DNA of 64,000 nt from Collinsella sp. An2. GTDB taxonomy: Bacteria > Actinomycetota > Coriobacteriia > Coriobacteriales > Coriobacteriaceae. Each line of letters starts with the position of its first letter. The stretch's first letter is position 1. Below the pieces are notes generated by a model, which saw only the letters and a program-made list of their open reading frames with translations, made no database searches and was not told the DNA's origin. Made by a program: the position numbers and the translations under genes. The stretch lies in the NCBI RefSeq assembly GCF_002160065.1, contig NZ_NFJW01000002.1:1-64000 (forward strand), written 5' to 3'. This document shows positions 8,053 through 58,472 of this stretch, one piece after another.

Positions 8053-8464
8053 CGGCTCCTCCTGTCTGCCACATCTGCGCCAACAACAAGCGCCCTGGTG
8101 ACGAACTGTTTCTCCCAGTGTACCCGCGGTGTCCTGCAGTGCACGTTAAAGCGACGCTCACCATGCTTTTCGCGTGCTTATTCGCTGGACGTTTCTCAAG
8201 AGCCGCCGCATTCCCGCAGCGACAGCCGCTCGCTGCGGTATCATCTGTGGCAAAACCGGGGAGGGCAACGGTTAGGCTGGCGGTTCGCGCGCCTACGGGG
8301 ACAGTCGGCCACGCATGTGGACTGGCAGCCTTTGGCTGTTGGAAGAAGCTTGCTGCCGCACGGCAGCACTGGTCAACGAGACATGACGCGCCATGCGCCA
8401 ATTTCCAGCTCGACCACAAGCACGCTGACCCCCGGCGACGACAACGACATCGACTGGGGGATAC
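8053..8464 (+). promoter_or_regulatory. Upstream region and possible long leader of glmU
   Basis: 412 bases with no convincing gene, between two divergent genes, so it carries both promoters. The part nearest glmU is rich in short complementary segments, for example a GCTGCC/GGCAGC hairpin with a GCAC loop at 8352-8367 preceded by CTGGCAGCC and GGCTGTTGG. This suggests a structured 5' leader. I could not match it to a known riboswitch class. Confidence 0.3.
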
Positions 8465-9910: not shown

Positions 9911-10897
9911 ATGCCAACACAGGACCACAAATTGACCCATCAGATGTATAAGACGCTGCGTCTGTATTCGGGGTCGTGTAACCGGCCGCTTGCGCAGAAA
10001 ATCGCTGACATCCTGGGTGTCGAGCTCTCGGGTCTTGCCCTTGAGAAGTTTGCGAACGGCGAGATCTACGCCCGCTTTGACGAGTCCGTTCGTGGCGCGG
10101 ACGTCTTCCTGGTGCAGTCCATTGCAGGAGCCAGCGTCAACGACATGCTGATGGAGCTGCTGGTGGCCACCGACGCCGCCAAGCGCGCCTCGGCCCGCAC
10201 CATCACCGCGGTCATCACCCACTATGCGTATGCGCGCCAGGACCGCAAGGCCGCCCCGCGCGAGCCCATCACCGCTCGCCTGGTGGCCAACCTGCTTGAG
10301 CGCGCCGGTGTCGACCGCATCATCACCCTCGACCTGCACCAGGGCCAGATCCAGGGCTTCTTCGATATTCCGGTGAACCAGCTGTCTGCGCTGCCGCTGT
10401 TTGGCGACTACTACAACGCCATGGGCTTCGACACCGACAACCTCGTGGTCGTCTCCCCCGACGTGGGCCGCGCCAAAGCCGCCAAGATGCTCTCCGACAT
10501 GCTGGGCTGCGACCTGGCCATTGCTCACAAGGGCCGCCCGCGCCACAACGCCGCCGAGGTCATGGGCATCATCGGTGACATCGAGGGCAAGACCTGCATC
10601 ATCAACGACGACATGATCGACACCGCGGGCACCCTGTGCGCCGGCGTCAAGGAGCTCAAGAAGATGGGCGCTGGCGACATCTACGTGTGCGCCACGCATG
10701 GCATTTTCTCGGGTCCGGCCATCGAGCGCCTGAACAACGCGCCCATCGTCGAGTGCCTGGTAACCGACTCCATCCCCGTTGAGGTGGGCGGCAAGATCAA
10801 GACCATCTCCGTGGCCCAGGAGTTTGCCGACGCCATCAACGCCGTGTACGAGGAGCACTCGGTTTCCAAGCTCGTCGGCGGCGATTTCGCTCTGTAG
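9911..10897 (+). CDS. prs: Ribose-phosphate pyrophosphokinase (PRPP synthetase)
   Basis: 328 residues. Class I PRPP synthetase features: FANGEIYARFDESVRGADVF near the N-terminus, HYAYARQDRK (ATP flexible loop), TLDLHQGQIQGFFDIP, and the PRPP-binding loop NDDMIDTAGTL. It converts ribose 5-phosphate and ATP to PRPP, feeding purine, pyrimidine, NAD, His and Trp synthesis; purF and carAB in this window draw on this pool. AAAAGGAG precedes the start. It follows glmU closely and is followed by a strong terminator. Confidence 0.97.
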   Translation: MPTQDHKLTHQMYKTLRLYSGSCNRPLAQKIADILGVELSGLALEKFANGEIYARFDESVRGADVFLVQSIAGASVNDMLMELLVATDAAKRASARTITAVITHYAYARQDRKAAPREPITARLVANLLERAGVDRIITLDLHQGQIQGFFDIPVNQLSALPLFGDYYNAMGFDTDNLVVVSPDVGRAKAAKMLSDMLGCDLAIAHKGRPRHNAAEVMGIIGDIEGKTCIINDDMIDTAGTLCAGVKELKKMGAGDIYVCATHGIFSGPAIERLNNAPIVECLVTDSIPVEVGGKIKTISVAQEFADAINAVYEEHSVSKLVGGDFAL

Positions 10898-13459: not shown

Positions 13460-13537
13460 TTAGACCAGCAACTAGATTTGACTATCTTTACGCCTGTTTT
13501 GACGCGTTTTCTTTGTCAATTCTAGTTGCTGGTCTAA
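13460..13537. repeat. Palindromic intergenic repeat, TTAGwCCAGCAACT family, copy 1
   Basis: Outer arms TTAGACCAGCAACTAGA (13460-13476) and TCTAGTTGCTGGTCTAA (13521-13537) are perfectly complementary over 17 bp. The next 8 positions (TTTGACTA against TTGTCAAT) continue as an imperfect stem. The loop is T-rich. Copies 2 and 3 at 43596 and 58354 share arm sequence and length. Flanked by pth and an IS30-type element; the sequence from 13538 to 13713 holds only degenerate GGCGAGAC-like repeats. Confidence 0.85.
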
Positions 13538-13713
13538 CTTTGTATGAAGCGAGACGGCGGGGCGGCGCGTCGGCGAGACAGCGGGTCGGCGGGACGATGT
13601 GCCGGCGGCCCAACGAGTTGGCGAGACGGCGCATCAACGAGTCGACGACCACGCGCCGCCGCCTCCGCAGCACCTTGCCGTCACGTCGCCTCGTCACCGC
13701 GCCCCATCGCCGC

Positions 13714-26391: not shown

Positions 26392-27273
26392 CTATGCCGT
26401 GGCGATCGACACGGTAAGGTCGGGCCGCACGGTTACGCGACCTTCGGCGAGCAGCTGAACCACCTGAGGATACAGGCGATGCTCGACGGCGTGGATGGCG
26501 GCCTCGAGGTCATCGACCGTCATGCCCTCCTCCACGCGCACAGGCTCCTGCGCAATGATAGGGCCCTGGTCGTAGACCTCGTTGGCGAAGTGCACCGTCA
26601 CGCCGGTCACCTTCACGCCGCGCGCGTAGGCGTCGGCAATACCGTGGGCACCCTGGAAGCTGGGAAGCAGCGCCGGATGCAGGTTGACGACACGGTTGGG
26701 CCACAGCGCCAGCAGCGGCTCGTGCACCTTGCGCATGTAGCCGGCCATGATGATGTACTCGGCCCCTGCGTGCTTGAGCTCCGTGGCAATAACCTCGTCG
26801 GCCACCCACGGGTCCTGGGCGTAGAGTTCCTTCGACAGCGCGAGCGTTTGGATGCCGGCGTCCGCGGCGCGCTTGAGCCCGGCTGCGGAGGGACGGCTCG
26901 AGATGACCATGACAACCTGCGCGTTGAGCGAACCGTCGGCAATGCGGTCGATGAGCGCCTGCAGATTGGTACCCGAACCCGAGATGAGCACGCCGATCTT
27001 GAGCGGCTCGGCCGTACCGGCAGCGACCTCCGCGGCGCGGCGGGCCTGAATGTCGTTGCCCGTCTCGCCATCGAGCCCCGCGGCGCGCAGGCGCTCCACG
27101 GCGTGGGCGACGGCTGCGGCATAGGCGGCGTCGTCCCCCTCGGCTGCGGCGACCAGCGCGCGGTTCACCTCGTGCTCGGCTCCCTTGCCAAAGAACTGCT
27201 CGCTCGGCTGTGCCTCGGGCGGCAGCCCCGCCTCCTCGACCAGTCGGCGATACTCCTCGTCGTTAGCGCTCAT
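26392..27273 (-). CDS. purN: Phosphoribosylglycinamide formyltransferase with N-terminal extension
   Basis: 293 residues against about 200 for typical PurN. The formyltransferase domain starts near residue 93 (IGVLISGSGTNLQALIDRIA) and carries the catalytic Asn-His (VVNLHPALLPSFQGAHG) and Asp (VYDQGPIIAQ). It transfers a formyl group from 10-formyl-THF to GAR in purine synthesis. The first ~92 residues (SANDEEYRRLVEEAGLPPEA onward) are an acidic, Ala-rich helical extension I do not recognise. The ATG overlaps the purM stop by 11 bases (ATGAGCGCTAA), so the extension is likely real and translation coupled. Confidence 0.93.
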   Translation of the reverse strand: MSANDEEYRRLVEEAGLPPEAQPSEQFFGKGAEHEVNRALVAAAEGDDAAYAAAVAHAVERLRAAGLDGETGNDIQARRAAEVAAGTAEPLKIGVLISGSGTNLQALIDRIADGSLNAQVVMVISSRPSAAGLKRAADAGIQTLALSKELYAQDPWVADEVIATELKHAGAEYIIMAGYMRKVHEPLLALWPNRVVNLHPALLPSFQGAHGIADAYARGVKVTGVTVHFANEVYDQGPIIAQEPVRVEEGMTVDDLEAAIHAVEHRLYPQVVQLLAEGRVTVRPDLTVSIATA

Positions 27274-28369
27274 CGGAGTACACCACCTTGCCGCTGCCGG
27301 GTACGCAGGCGCCCACGTGGAAGGGACGCTCGCCCATGGCCTCAAGGGCGGCCATGACGCCGGCCTCCTCCTCGGCCGGGCAGATGATCATGAGGCCAAC
27401 GCCCATGTTGAAAGTCTTGCAGGCCTCGTTGGGGGTAAGACCGGCCTGGCGCGCAATGTAGGAGATGACGGGCGGCATGTCCCAGCCCATCTCCTTGCCG
27501 TCGCGCTCGACCACGGCGTCGACGTCGGAGGCAAGCGCACGGTTGAGGTTCTCGGTGATGCCTCCGCCCGTAATGTGGGCGATGGCGTGCACGGTGACGC
27601 CACCGCGCAGAAGCTCCAGGATAGGCTTCACGTAGATGCGCGTGGGCTCCAACAGGGCATCGGCGAGCGAACGGCCGCCGAGCTCCTCAAGCGGCTGCTC
27701 GAGCTCGGCCCGCTTGGCCTCGGCCTCGGGGGTGCCAGGCACGATACCGTCGACGCCGATCATGCGGCGCACCAGCGAGTATCCGTTTGAATGCACGCCC
27801 GAGCTCGGCAGGCCGATGATGGCGTCGCCGGGACGGACGTTTGCCGGGTCGAGCATCTTGGGCCGATCGACCACGCCCACGGTGAAGCCGGCCATGTCAT
27901 AGTCGTCGGGACGCATGACGCCGGGATGCTCGGCCATCTCGCCGCCCACGAGCGCGCAGCCCGCGAGCTTGCAGCCGTCGGCCACGCCCTTCACGATCTT
28001 GGCCATGTGCTCGGCCTGAATATGCCCGATGGCAACGTAGTCCAGAAAGAACAGCGGCTCGGCGCCGGAGGCCAGAATGTCGTTCACGCACATGGCGACG
28101 AGGTCCTGGCCCACGGTCTCGTGGCGGTCGAGAATCTGAGCGAGCACGAGCTTGGTGCCCACGCCATCGGTGCCGGAGATGAGAACGGGGTCCTCCATGT
28201 CCTTGAGCGCGGCGGCGGAGAAGAGCCCGCCAAAACCGCCGATGCCGCCGATGACCTCGGGACGGTTGGTCTCGGCGACCATCTGCTTGATGGCGTCGAC
28301 GGCGCGGCCGCCCTCGGCGGTATCGACGCCGGCATCCTCGTAGGTCACATGCTTGGGTGTGTCGCTCAT
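27263..28369 (-). CDS. purM: Phosphoribosylformylglycinamidine cyclo-ligase (AIR synthetase)
   Basis: 368 residues, normal for PurM. Motifs: YEDAGVDTAEGGRAVDAIK, SGTDGVGTKLVLAQIL, DLVAMCVNDILASGAEPLFF, GGEMAEHPGVM and SSGVHSNGYSLVRRM. It closes the imidazole ring of AIR from FGAM. ATG 28369 (MSDTPKHV) is preferred over ATG six bases upstream because AAAGGA overlaps the latter. It is coupled to purN downstream. Upstream the usual purF neighbour is separated from it by the 28692-30404 gene. Confidence 0.96.
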   Translation of the reverse strand: MSDTPKHVTYEDAGVDTAEGGRAVDAIKQMVAETNRPEVIGGIGGFGGLFSAAALKDMEDPVLISGTDGVGTKLVLAQILDRHETVGQDLVAMCVNDILASGAEPLFFLDYVAIGHIQAEHMAKIVKGVADGCKLAGCALVGGEMAEHPGVMRPDDYDMAGFTVGVVDRPKMLDPANVRPGDAIIGLPSSGVHSNGYSLVRRMIGVDGIVPGTPEAEAKRAELEQPLEELGGRSLADALLEPTRIYVKPILELLRGGVTVHAIAHITGGGITENLNRALASDVDAVVERDGKEMGWDMPPVISYIARQAGLTPNEACKTFNMGVGLMIICPAEEEAGVMAALEAMGERPFHVGACVPGSGKVVYSDER

Positions 28370-28493
28370 GCGCATCCTTTCCCAGGTGGGTCACGTATGC
28401 ACACATCATAGCAGGTAGCGATGCGCGACGGCTCGCCTTCGAGCCGAAGCGTCCATCGAACATCTCTTAACTCGCAATCAGCTCTCAGACGAG

Positions 28494-28643
28494 CTCTCCG
28501 ATTGTCTCTTTAACTGAGAGATAATCGGAGAGATAGTAGAGAGATATCTGAGAGATGAGCCATATCGGAGAGTTCCGAGACGTCTGGCCAGGTAAAACAA
28601 CTCTTCGAGAGCCGCGCCCTATCGAAGAGGTAACGGAGAGGTG
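28494..28643 (+). repeat. 150-bp direct repeat, left copy
   Basis: About 90 percent identical, base for base and without gaps by eye (about 14 differences), to 30454-30603. It contains an internal palindrome CTCTCCGATTgTCTCT/AGAGATAATCGGAGAG and many AGAGAT/ATCTCT units. It lies between purM and the Schlafen-like gene. Confidence 0.9.
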
Positions 28644-28691
28644 CTCCAGGTCGAAGAGGTCCGGCTCCAACTCTCCGCGTCTCGCATCCAC

Positions 28692-30404
28692 CTACTTCAA
28701 CATATATCTCCTGTTCCTGCTGTGTGCTCCAGCCGTTGGGCTCACCAGCCCTGCATCAATCAGCGCGGGCAATGCGTAGCGCACCTTTGACACCGAAGTT
28801 CCCAGCGCGCCTGCAAGTTCCTTCGCCCCATACGCTTTGCCAGGCTCCATGAGGGCAAGTATCGCTTGACGCAACTCTTCCGCAGAAGCTCGTCCCGATG
28901 TTTTGCGGGCCTTGTCTTGAACAACGCTATAACCATGATCAGCATCGCCACACAGCAGACCTTGATCGATCAACCGAGAGCACGCATCGCGAATGTCATC
29001 GGAATCCCAGCCCAAAGCAGTCCGTATGCTCGGAACGGTCATCGAAGCTCCGCGATTGCGCAGAAGCGCAAGCAAGGTCTCTTCCTTGACGTCCAGCTCG
29101 CGTCCTGCGTGCTGTGCAATCCACTCTCGATTGCGCATGAGCTCGGCGCCATGACGAGCAAATATCACGGTAAAGGAGTCATACTTTGCGACAAAATGTG
29201 GACGGCTCAGCGATCGAGACTCCATCTCTCGAATCATCGAGCTGACTCCCGAGCCCTGGCTTTCAGCCACATAGCCCCCGTCGTGCTCAAGCGGCACCGC
29301 CCCCATCAAGCTCATGAGCTTGGCATTTCGACAGCGAGACTCTCCATCCTCAAGATTGTCGAGCGTCTTTCCTCCCCAAAGCCCGCCAGGATTTGTAACC
29401 TCGATACGATCGGGATAGATGTCCACGCTTACCGCCTGCCCTAAAAACATGGGCGAATACTCGCGATGAATCACCGCATTCGCCAACGCCTCGCGCAGCG
29501 CCTCTTTAGGAACCTCCCACTCATCGTGCCGGCCCGCACCGACGACATATGAAATCGTGCGAACATTTCGTCCGATTGCCGCGAGCGCATCCTCGATACA
29601 TGCCGAGAGCGGACCATCACATATCTGACGGTCGAGGAATCGCGGAGCGCCTGGCTCTGACTTCTGTGTGCCAGGGTGTACGGCAACGTCGATTACAAGC
29701 TTTGGGAAGTATTGTTGCGGATACACGCCGGTCGCTAGCAGGCCAGCAAGCCGCACCGCGCCTGCCTTATTTGTTATGTTCAAGCGGTTAAGCTGCTGTT
29801 CGCGCGTCTCTGCACCGCGCAGCACGCGAGGGCTTTGCTGCCTTCGCCCCTCTATTACTGCGGTGACCAAATCTCCGTCGAGGTCTTCAATCGTCGCTTC
29901 GGGCACTACCTCGCCATCTGCATCGCTGGGAACAAGTACGCTTTGCATCTCATATAGCTCGGATGCCGAAAGGCGTATGTCCTTATCATCAACTCGCTTA
30001 TAGCTTCCGCCTTGGATGCCGCGAGCAAGAATGAAGCAGGGTCGCTCCTGAATCGGGAGCCGCTCGATTTCTATGAGAAGCACCTGTTGGTCATCGACCA
30101 TGCCGCGCGAAAGCTCGTAACGCGGAGGATGAACCACCAAAGATGCGCTTTCTCCGTCCCCAATACCCTCGACAAACTGGTCGCGGACACGATCGATATC
30201 GAACTGCTCTGTTGGAGCAAACCCCTCCTGCTCATCTATGCCGCATATGATGAGGCCACCAGACGTGTTGGCGAAGGCGCTCACCGTCTCCCAAATGTCG
30301 TGACTGAGACCACGACCGCATTTCTTCGCCTCGACCGTTGCGTCGTCAGTACCTTGCTTACGGAGGCGAGCGACAATGTTTTCGAGCTGATCAGCGGGCA
30401 CCAT
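28692..30404 (-). CDS. Schlafen/AlbA_2-type protein with ATPase-like and winged-helix domains
   Basis: 570 residues. N-terminal AlbA_2 (Schlafen) domain: TVEAKKCGRGLSHDIWETVS, FANTSGGLIICGIDE, and GSYKRVDDKDIRLSASEL. The middle (about 290-420) fits the HATPase_c_4 group (REALANAVIHREYS, VDIYPDRIEVTNPGGL, GSGVSSMIREM). The last ~130 residues hold two winged-helix segments (SMTVPSIRTALGWDSDDIRD; YGAKELAGALGTSVSKVRYA). Such proteins are annotated as DNA-binding regulators and some are linked to defence; the role here is unknown. Base composition is visibly lower in GC than purF and purM. It is bounded by two 150-bp direct repeats inside the pur cluster, suggesting it was acquired. Confidence 0.85.
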   Translation of the reverse strand: MVPADQLENIVARLRKQGTDDATVEAKKCGRGLSHDIWETVSAFANTSGGLIICGIDEQEGFAPTEQFDIDRVRDQFVEGIGDGESASLVVHPPRYELSRGMVDDQQVLLIEIERLPIQERPCFILARGIQGGSYKRVDDKDIRLSASELYEMQSVLVPSDADGEVVPEATIEDLDGDLVTAVIEGRRQQSPRVLRGAETREQQLNRLNITNKAGAVRLAGLLATGVYPQQYFPKLVIDVAVHPGTQKSEPGAPRFLDRQICDGPLSACIEDALAAIGRNVRTISYVVGAGRHDEWEVPKEALREALANAVIHREYSPMFLGQAVSVDIYPDRIEVTNPGGLWGGKTLDNLEDGESRCRNAKLMSLMGAVPLEHDGGYVAESQGSGVSSMIREMESRSLSRPHFVAKYDSFTVIFARHGAELMRNREWIAQHAGRELDVKEETLLALLRNRGASMTVPSIRTALGWDSDDIRDACSRLIDQGLLCGDADHGYSVVQDKARKTSGRASAEELRQAILALMEPGKAYGAKELAGALGTSVSKVRYALPALIDAGLVSPTAGAHSRNRRYMLK

Positions 30405-30453
30405 GGGACTTCTCTCCGTTCATCTCTACGATATCTCTCAGAATACCATGTAT

Positions 30454-30603
30454 CTCTCCGATTATCTCTTTAACTGAGAGATAATCGGAGAGATAGTAGA
30501 GAGCTATCTGAGAGATAAGCCATATCGGAGAGCTCCAAGGCGTCTGACCAGGCAAAACACCTCTTCGAGAGATGCTCCCTATCGAAGAGCTAACGGAGAG
30601 CTG
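30454..30603 (+). repeat. 150-bp direct repeat, right copy
   Basis: Partner of 28494-28643. Here the internal palindrome is perfect: CTCTCCGATTATCTCT (30454-30469) and AGAGATAATCGGAGAG (30477-30492), 16 bp per arm. It starts 49 bases upstream of the Schlafen-like start codon and ends 21 bases after the purF stop, so it could hold the promoter of the former and affect termination of the latter. Confidence 0.9.
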
Positions 30604-30624
30604 CGCCCCAAGTCAAACCGGCGG

Positions 30625-32274
30625 CTAGGCTCCAAGATGCAGCTCTTCCCACGTGCGGTCGCGCTCTTTCTGCTCGACCACGTCGCGCGGCAGCACCGTA
30701 GGCTGCGTGAGGTTGCAGGGGTCGTAACCGGGCATAAACTTGTCGCGGCCAAAGCTTTCGGGAATGGCAACCGGGTACACGCCCGTGAAGCACGCCGTGC
30801 AATAGCCGTGTGCAGGATGGTCGTCACCGGTCTTTGCCGCAGCGCAAGGCGGTACGCAGGCGAGCAGCCCCTGAACCGACAAAAACGCAAGGGAGTCGGC
30901 GCCAATGAACTCGCAGATCTCGTCGACCGACTTGTTCGCGCTGATAAGCTGCGCCTGCACGTCGGTGTCGATGCCATAGAAGCACGGCCACACGACCTCC
31001 GGCGAGTTGATGCGCACGTGGACCTCGGCCGCGCCCGCCTGGCGCAGCATCTTCACGAGCTGCACCATGGTGGTGCCGCGCACAATGGAGTCGTCGATCA
31101 CCACAAGGCGCTTGCCAGCGATGTTGTCGCGCAGCGGGTTGAGCTTCATGCGCACGCCCATCGCACGAAGCTCCTGCGTGGGCTGGATGAACGTACGGGC
31201 CACATAGCGGTTCTTGATAAGCCCCTCGCCAAAGGGAATGCCACTCTCCAGCGCGTAGCCCTCCGCCGGCGGCAGGCCGCTGTCGGGCACGCCGATGACC
31301 ATGTCGGCGTCCACCGGCGCCTCGCGCGCAAGCTGCCGCCCCATGTCGTAGCGACAGGCATAGACCGACTTGCCGGCCATGATGGAGTCGGGACGCGCAA
31401 AGTAGACCTGCTCGAAGATGCACTCGGCCGTCTCCTTTGCCGCGGGCACACCCTGCTCAAAGACAAGGCCTTCGGCGTTCACGCGCAAGATCTCGCCGGG
31501 ACGAATGTCGCGCACATAGACCGCGCCCACGATGTCGAGCGCGCAGGTCTCGGACGCCACGACCCAGCCGGCGGCATCGATCTCGCCGGCCTCGGTGCCG
31601 GGGCGCGCAATGATGTCGCGCCCTTCGTCGTCCTGTTTGGGCAGGTAGCCCAGCACCAGTGGGCGAATGCCATACGGATCGCGAAACGCATACAGGGCCT
31701 GCTCGTTGATGAGCGCCATGGCATAGCCACCACGCACGAGCTCCATGGTCTTGCGAATGCCCTCGCGCAGATGCTTGGTGCGCTGCGTGAAGTAGCCGAT
31801 GAGCTTGGCCGCGACCTCAGAGTCGGAGTTGGAGAGGAAGCTCACGCCTAGGTCAATGAGCTGGCGGCGCAGCTCATCGGTATTCACCAGCGTGCCGTTA
31901 TGGGCCAGGGCGATGATGACGTCGTTGATAGTGGAGAGATGCGGCTGGGCGGCCTCCCAGCTCTTCGCGCCGGCGGTGCCATAGCGCACGTGTCCCACGG
32001 CGAGCTGGCCTGTGAGCGTCGAGAGGTCGGCGTCGGAGAACACCTGGTCACACAGGCCCAGGTCCTTGCGCACCAGAACGGTACCGCCGTCGCCCACGGC
32101 AATGCCCGCAGACTCCTGCCCGCGGTGCTGGAGCGCCTTCAAGCCAAAATAGGTGAGGCGCGCAACATCGCGTCCCGGCGCCCAGATGCCGAAGACGCCG
32201 CACTCCTCGTGAAGCTGGTCCGCCTCGGCCGGATCAGCCTGCCAGCTCGCCCCGCGCCGCTCCTCTACACTCAT
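30625..32274 (-). CDS. purF: Amidophosphoribosyltransferase (glutamine PRPP amidotransferase)
   Basis: 549 residues. A 24-residue propeptide precedes Cys25 (ECGVFGIW), the N-terminal nucleophile after cleavage. The glutaminase domain (ALQHRGQESAGIAV) is followed by the phosphoribosyltransferase domain with the PRPP loop VVIDDSIVRGTTMVQLV. Cys residues near the C-terminus (ACVPPCAAAKT, YCTACFTG) resemble the [4Fe-4S] ligands of the Bacillus-type enzyme. First committed step of purine synthesis, using PRPP from prs. It probably headed a purF-purM-purN operon before the Schlafen-like gene came between. Confidence 0.96.
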   Translation of the reverse strand: MSVEERRGASWQADPAEADQLHEECGVFGIWAPGRDVARLTYFGLKALQHRGQESAGIAVGDGGTVLVRKDLGLCDQVFSDADLSTLTGQLAVGHVRYGTAGAKSWEAAQPHLSTINDVIIALAHNGTLVNTDELRRQLIDLGVSFLSNSDSEVAAKLIGYFTQRTKHLREGIRKTMELVRGGYAMALINEQALYAFRDPYGIRPLVLGYLPKQDDEGRDIIARPGTEAGEIDAAGWVVASETCALDIVGAVYVRDIRPGEILRVNAEGLVFEQGVPAAKETAECIFEQVYFARPDSIMAGKSVYACRYDMGRQLAREAPVDADMVIGVPDSGLPPAEGYALESGIPFGEGLIKNRYVARTFIQPTQELRAMGVRMKLNPLRDNIAGKRLVVIDDSIVRGTTMVQLVKMLRQAGAAEVHVRINSPEVVWPCFYGIDTDVQAQLISANKSVDEICEFIGADSLAFLSVQGLLACVPPCAAAKTGDDHPAHGYCTACFTGVYPVAIPESFGRDKFMPGYDPCNLTQPTVLPRDVVEQKERDRTWEELHLGA

Positions 32275-43595: not shown

Positions 43596-43712
43596 TTAGT
43601 CCAGCAACTGGATTTGACTAACAAAAGGCTCGATTTTGGGGCTAAATCTAGTCAATTGTAGTTGCCAGACTATCTTTCACCTCACGCTAGTCAAATCCAG
43701 TTGCTGGACTAA
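43596..43712. repeat. Palindromic intergenic repeat, TTAGTCCAGCAACT family, compound copy 2
   Basis: TTAGTCCAGCAACTGGATTT with GACTA (43596-43620) is perfectly complementary to 43688-43712 over 25 bp. Between them a third, partial arm TAGTCAATTGTAGTTGCCAG (from 43649) also pairs with the first. So a normal-length element has gained an extra arm. Followed by GAGCGATTGGACG repeated at 43750 and 43778. The intergenic region 43436-43828 holds no gene. Confidence 0.85.
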
Positions 43713-58353: not shown

Positions 58354-58430
58354 TTAGTCCAGCAACTACTTTTGACTAACTTTAGGCCCGTTTTTCGGCC
58401 GAAACTTAGTCAATGGTAGTTGCTGAACTA
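58354..58430. repeat. Palindromic intergenic repeat, TTAGTCCAGCAACT family, copy 3
   Basis: TTAGTCCAGCAACTACTTTT followed by GACTAA (58354-58379) faces TTAGTCAATGGTAGTTGCTG plus AACTA (58406-58430), complementary with a few mismatches. The central GGCCCGTTTTTCGGCC is a further hairpin. Located between the ABC exporter and the second NUDIX gene, in 58253-58472, which holds no gene. Confidence 0.85.
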
Positions 58431-58472
58431 CGTTTGGGATGTTTGCACGGCGAGCAGACGAGCGGCTCGACG

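Follow-up and report, generated by a model that had tools for sequence, protein, structure and literature searches.

In the stretch of DNA analysed here (64,000 nucleotides, hereafter 'the window'), a Schlafen-type gene lies between purF and purM with a copy of the same direct repeat on either side of it. A preliminary description of the locus took this layout for a 'cassette' that had been inserted, or could be lost, by recombination between the repeats. The question raised by the locus is what these repeats are: the ends of an inserted unit, control sites belonging to the gene that they flank, or both.

The gene and its product

The features referred to in the text are as follows (nucleotide positions are those of the window; residue numbers are those of the Schlafen-type protein).

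28692..30404, minus strand: Schlafen-type gene, 570 aa (open reading frame, Pfam, AF2, Foldseek)
aa 21-144: SLFN_AlbA_2 domain (Pfam PF04326)
aa 322-415: HATPase_c_4 domain (Pfam PF13749)
aa about 418-494 and 505-570: two C-terminal winged-helix-like domains (AF2 secondary structure)
30625..32274, minus strand: purF (name assigned by reading the protein; 59 of 65 family genomes have a homologue)
27263..28375, minus strand: purM (name assigned by reading the protein; 63 of 65 family genomes have a homologue)
30454..30607, no strand assigned: start-side (upstream) repeat, a GAGAG/CTCTC-core array with a period of 11-12 bp in its first part
28494..28647, no strand assigned: stop-side (downstream) repeat, in the same orientation as the upstream copy and located upstream of purM
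30451..30495, no strand assigned: perfect palindrome with 19-bp arms and a 7-nt loop, in the upstream repeat copy
28489..28537, no strand assigned: imperfect palindrome (86%) with 21-nt arms, in the downstream repeat copy
30405..30453, no strand assigned: extra occurrences of the motif (CTCTC at 30412 and 30435), lying between the upstream repeat and the start codon

By its domains, the product is a member of the Schlafen/AlbA_2 - HATPase - wHTH proteins. It matches PF13749 with an E-value of 5.6e-22 (78 bits against a cut-off of 26) and PF04326 with one of 6.9e-10 (39.9 bits against a cut-off of 25.3), and a GntR-like helix-turn-helix in Pfam comes just under its cut-off (24.4 against 27). 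The AF2 model, computed from 40 family proteins (mean pLDDT 90.4), has two winged-helix-like units at its C-terminal end, and Foldseek also gives SelB winged helices as matches to it; the best solved structure returned for the whole model is 3lmm (E 4.8e-27, TM 0.37). Three candidate acidic residues are conserved among 64 family proteins (D20 in 58, E25 in 63 and E58 in 61), and, from their spacing, these may be the equivalents of the SLFN13 triad, that is, of the catalytic residues of Schlafen RNases.

As had been described, the gene between the repeats is lower in GC (0.57) than its 1.5-kb flanks (0.62-0.64). Purine genes stand on both sides, and a defence-gene neighbourhood is absent in the window; one relative (L183) adjoins hsdR. 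PADLOC has no dedicated defence model for the protein and gives partial matches only, the best being to pAgo (E 8.9e-11) over part of that model.

The repeats as a motif array

The two direct repeats are 154 nt each and 90.3% identical, with an E-value (1e-57) that rules out a chance origin; they stand 44 bp past the stop codon and 49 bp before the start codon. The length and likeness first given for them (about 150 bp and about 90%) were close to these values, but the end point then assigned, 30603, falls short of the second copy, which ends at 30607. Similarly, the perfect palindrome reported by the gene's start is present but exceeds the 16 bp originally ascribed to it, having 19-bp arms about its loop.

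Both copies have their first four GAGAG cores at spacings of 12, 11 and 11 bp, and none of the 40 core positions is affected by the 15 mismatches that separate the copies (P 0.0085). The further CTCTC copies on the start-codon side lie outside the duplicated 154-bp block. Rather than being the anonymous ends of a cassette, the repeats are two instances of the type of motif array that stands upstream of the genes of relatives (see below).

Within its own genome (2,536,743 bases), the repeat finds its two copies and its own inverted self-match, with the next match being of 18 bp (E 0.04); three GAGAG in a row at intervals of 4-9 bp occur in these 2.54 Mb only at the Schlafen locus. The reversed-pattern control for the latter search is uninformative, because GAGAG is identical when read backwards. 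With two copies only, and an array exclusive to the locus, a multi-copy repeat or the end of an IS is ruled out for this genome. Elsewhere in the window, an element that is about 82 bp long and imperfectly palindromic occurs three times (13460-13541, 43596-43677 and 58354-58435), the copies being 68-77% alike.

Palindromic arrays might act not as DNA operators but as RNA hairpins, either as terminators or as ligands of the Schlafen RNase. The strong folding of the start-side array as RNA (z -5.4 on one strand and -6.1 on the other) speaks for this, although any long palindrome would fold so; moreover, a T-run terminator is reported at neither window array, and the arrays of relatives are strings of short motifs with a spacing of 11-12 bp (where measured or read), as for phasing along the DNA helix. 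We regard the hairpin reading as very improbable. A simple scan of positions 28340-30700 found no sigma-70 promoter-like site.

The purF-purM slot in relatives

The gap between purF and purM was compared, by hand computation from match coordinates, in those 58 of the 65 family genomes in which the two genes share a contig; the other seven were left out, either with a gene missing or with purF and purM on separate contigs. The two genes are less than 600 bp apart in 45 of the 58, which bears out the earlier statement that they are usually contiguous. Far from being carried by all relatives at this site, a gene of the family stands between purF and purM in only two of the 58 genomes, namely that of the window and that of C. 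tanakaei YIT 12063 (G045), whose proteins form a sister pair in the tree (support 96/71). Motif copies are present upstream of the C. tanakaei orthologue; the stop codon of this gene lies about 50 bp from purM, and it has no downstream repeat. Two genomes of the same genus, G001 (gap 412 bp) and G002 (gap 163 bp), have no Schlafen gene at purF-purM and no copy of the repeat, and a one-array empty site was not found in this slot. In G034, a different gene with SLFN_AlbA_2 and HATPase_c_4 domains (480 aa; L091, 370-1812, minus strand) occupies the slot and has no arrays.

The interval itself deserves comment. Gaps of more than 600 bp occur in 13 of the 58 genomes, and, since their contents are unrelated to each other (for example, a surface protein with FctA/VWA domains in L094 and PTS genes in L095), they suggest that purF-purM is an insertion hotspot. 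Two of these inserts also lie between direct repeats: one of about 4 kb and of GntR/PTS type (named by reading) in G023 (L087), between 107-bp repeats of 94% identity that consist of the 3' end of the last gene and an apparent terminator; and one of ABC-transporter type in G031 (L090; GC 0.45), between 190-bp repeats of 92.6% identity that end in inverted repeats and resemble paired miniature elements.

Arrays across the family

From the Coriobacteriales, 133 copies of the family gene were collected, 91 of them different. An upstream 7-mer array (p<=0.01 against shuffles) is found at 40 of the 87 genes with enough upstream sequence. When the proteins are clustered at 80% amino-acid identity, and three clusters with short flanks are removed, 62 clusters are left, of which 22 have an upstream array at p<=0.01 and 27 at p<=0.05; the remaining 35 have no significant upstream array even at the latter threshold. 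Motifs vary by lineage, and include GAGAGATA, TTAGAGAGA, TGTCAGTGACA, CTGCGACA, CTTATTCA and CTTTCCA, amongst others. The preliminary description had proposed a search for the same repeat around other genes: in its own genome the repeat goes no further than its two copies, but relatives have lineage-specific arrays of their own.

Most of the 62 clusters have no second array. We called a gene two-sided when a stretch of 30 bp or more is common to the 350 bp on its start side and the 350 bp on its stop side, a rule that fires in 21 of 62 clusters against 2 of 175 control genes taken from the same stretches and from the window (Fisher 5e-12); the two controls concerned are an ORF within a duplication in the window and a gene beside a 43-bp repeat. 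Upstream regions of the controls hold a 7-mer at least five times in just 2 of 175 cases, both of which, judged by position, border a family gene's own array. By eye, 17 of the 21 clusters are motif arrays: the 49-bp repeats by L015 and its relatives, and the repeats by L027, L143 and L205, appear terminator-like or unrelated and were set aside as not being gene arrays, which brings the automatic 21 down to 17. Two further loci, L153 and L201, have arrays by eye but lie below the rule and were left out of the count. The two-sided state changes 11 times on the tree, and so comes and goes. The layout is a recurrent class, wider than the purF-purM site, and its recurrence in the family rules out a one-off event between these two genes.

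A second purine neighbourhood is provided by G044 (L118), where a family gene with dnaB on one side and purA-purD on the other (named by reading) is enclosed by CTGCGACA arrays at 8073-8157 and 9982-10045. Such settings invite an explanation by regulatory duplication, in which the arrays serve as operators and nothing more, the stop-side copy came about by chance or for control of the next gene (purM-purN in the window, purA-purD in G044), and loss of the gene is a trivial by-product. The position of the downstream array, just before a purine gene in the window and before purA-purD in G044, fits with this, as do the sparing of core positions in both repeat copies of the window and the single array of C. 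tanakaei in the same slot; yet the genes downstream vary amongst the two-sided cases (sdh/frd-like in L044, others elsewhere), and 17 of 62 clusters share the matched-array layout, for which the tree requires 11 label changes. Taken with the relocated pairs described below, we find regulatory duplication rather unlikely.

Across the family, the neighbourhoods include purF-purM, dnaB-purA, larE, valS, ligA, hsdR and tRNA-Met (the larE, valS, ligA, dnaB, purA and tRNA neighbours being named by reading), and this variety weakens the idea of a purine-specific regulator.

Relatives turn up in collections of plasmids (3 records), phages (23 records) and viruses (23 loci), and every one of them is distant except L291 (37%). 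Among the 12 of 23 viral loci inspected by eye, an upstream array is present in L291 only, and a matched array pair in none. Distant family relatives (24% identity) are encoded by satellite phages of Streptococcus; in one of these, Javan593 (L314, 3971-5461), the relative adjoins an integrase.

Loss of the gene and relocation of the unit

For nine two-sided cassettes, the left and right flanks were joined and looked for in 395 genomes; among the matches listed, empty sites were found for at least one of the nine, the cassette of G040 (L140). Compared with this, G038 and G037 have the left flank, exactly one array and the right flank, without the gene; identity to the G040 flanks is 77% (G038) and 78% (G037) on the left, and 97% (G038) and 93% (G037) on the right. 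The single array of G038 is a chimera, its left part following the upstream copy and its right part the downstream copy, and as such is the expected product of a deletion between direct repeats; that of G037 is shorter and less clear.

A further case, tested by flank alone, is that of G173 against G169 and G166 (L160/L162), where the flanks are the same and the gene is absent. The junction here falls at motif copies, of which two are left in place of a complete array, and some 70 bp beyond the left array is absent as well. Four relatives share the start-side flank of L168 only to between -164 and -218, and provide no clean empty site.

The notion of an inserted or losable cassette has, in this way, survived in part: the gene is an insertion with respect to most relatives, and the anticipated empty site with exactly one repeat exists at the G040 cassette, but no one-repeat site is seen at purF-purM.

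Movement between loci can be followed in a pairwise comparison of 373 pairs at 70-99.5% protein identity. In many, the shared flanks extend well past the gene. In three pairs that sit at different loci and have two-sided arrays, DNA homology stops near the outer array edges on both sides: it runs from -87 to +91 in L168/L183 (90% amino-acid identity), from -181 to +148 in L193/L197 (85%) and from -129 to +72 in L192/L195 (80%). Such an end to homology is not predicted by regulatory duplication. The pair L204/L215 (88%) is a counter-case: its shared DNA is limited to -98 to +6, and no array was detected at L215. Beyond the arrays of L183, L195, L218 and L189 stand outer direct repeats of 48-106 bp, which are at most candidate target-site duplications; that of L218 carries, by eye, a tRNA-Met-like sequence.

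The arrays of a cassette can resemble each other more closely than they resemble those of a sister: copies within L193 and L197 score 0.99 and 0.95, against 0.78 and 0.82 between the sisters, and copies within L190 and L206 score 0.98 and 0.93, against 0.61 and 0.59. In the recently split pairs L168/L183, L192/L218 and L160/L162, the orthologous array copies are the more alike, and in L150/L151 likeness within and between cassettes differs little. The two arrays of a cassette would thus either arise together or become homogenised in the long run, in some lineages at least.

An autonomous mobile element, whose protein would use its nuclease and ATPase parts to cut and join DNA at the arrays in the manner of transposon ends or long terminal repeats, could account for much of this: for a unit of a single gene and a pair of arrays that is met at different loci and ends close to the arrays, for copies within a cassette that can be nearly identical, as if made by insertion, for the existence of solo arrays, and for the retention of the candidate acidic residues D20, E25 and E58 in the family. 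We nevertheless think it quite improbable, given that neither Pfam nor Foldseek finds a known recombinase or transposase fold in the protein, that no target-site duplication or free circle is shown, that the array pair was found once per genome (in the one genome tested), and that ordinary recombination and horizontal transfer explain both loss and spread. The unit also has no transposase or integrase among its open reading frames and Pfam domains, there being a single long ORF between the repeats.

A model for the locus

Bringing these observations together, we think it probable that the locus is an array-gene-array cassette, housing a self-repressed Schlafen effector or regulator that is both nomadic and losable. 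The protein would be a conditional nuclease, whose N-terminal SLFN/AlbA_2 domain probably cleaves nucleic acids and whose middle part is GHKL-type ATPase-like, whilst its C-terminal winged helices may bind the short-motif arrays private to the gene's lineage, here of GAGAG type. Occupancy of the start-side array would then repress the gene's own transcription. More tentatively, the stop-side array could be a second anchor or a block to read-through; it also lies upstream of purM, and may influence this gene.

Since the two arrays match almost exactly and run in the same direction, a recombination event from one to the other would delete the gene and leave one array behind, as the comparison in a relative suggests; and three pairs of relatives point to a gene that travels between loci with little beyond its arrays. 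For the window copy itself, insertion or loss through its repeats is plausible. The likely benefit to the host would be a conditional defence against phages or other stress, although for the window gene any link to phage defence is by analogy with the literature on its family.

A bolder form of the model would make the unit an undescribed class of single-gene mobile element in Actinomycetota, consisting of a Schlafen-type protein with private palindromic arrays that serve as both operators and element ends. Insertion would create the near-identical arrays at its two ends, loss would leave a solo-array 'scar', and motif and binding domain would turn over fast and jointly; we judge this form of the model to be unlikely.

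Bacterial Schlafens are widespread and little understood, and are now linked to phage defence. The array-gene-array layout makes their control approachable through predicted binding sites that are readable from sequence, and solo arrays mark the past residence of Schlafen genes, such that gain and loss can be read as well; the layout also bears on how a dangerous RNase stays silent, and spreads without a transposase.

Comparison with known systems

Several known arrangements resemble this one in part. RAYT genes are single genes that lie between matched, lineage-private REP/REPIN palindromes, and are defined by an HuH transposase and many REP copies; the window unit has no transposase domain, and its arrays are not scattered through the genome. 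LTR elements have near-identical direct repeats at both ends and leave solo LTRs after recombination, but here the likeness is one of analogy only, for the window unit is bacterial, lacks a reverse transcriptase or integrase, and has motif arrays for repeats. At the level of fold, the best whole-chain match, which is also a weak match in sequence, is DIP2311 of Corynebacterium diphtheriae (PDB 3lmm), itself uncharacterised; identity is 18-20% and the TM-score 0.36-0.42, a value low enough to indicate that the domain arrangement of the window protein differs from that of 3lmm.

Schlafen - minimal histidine kinase - wHTH proteins have been described as tightly associated, in at least 1017 taxa, with BREX and related defence loci, in an account that also cites a preprint on anti-phage activity (PMC12839542). 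To judge from the available part of this account, their domain order is the same as that of the window protein, but the window gene differs from the BREX-linked Schlafens in standing alone, between purF and purM, and the flanking private arrays and solo-array scars are features of the window family that this part does not mention (PMC12839542). A literature search in a limited collection found no account of arrays flanking Schlafen genes.

For the proposed mode of control there is a partial precedent in RptR, a repressor of a restriction-modification/toxin island that binds three short direct repeats in its own promoter (PMC12255303). As described in the available part of that source, RptR is a small four-helix protein, with repeats on one side only and no pair flanking the gene; its example shows, all the same, that repeated short operators are used for the silencing of defence genes (PMC12255303).
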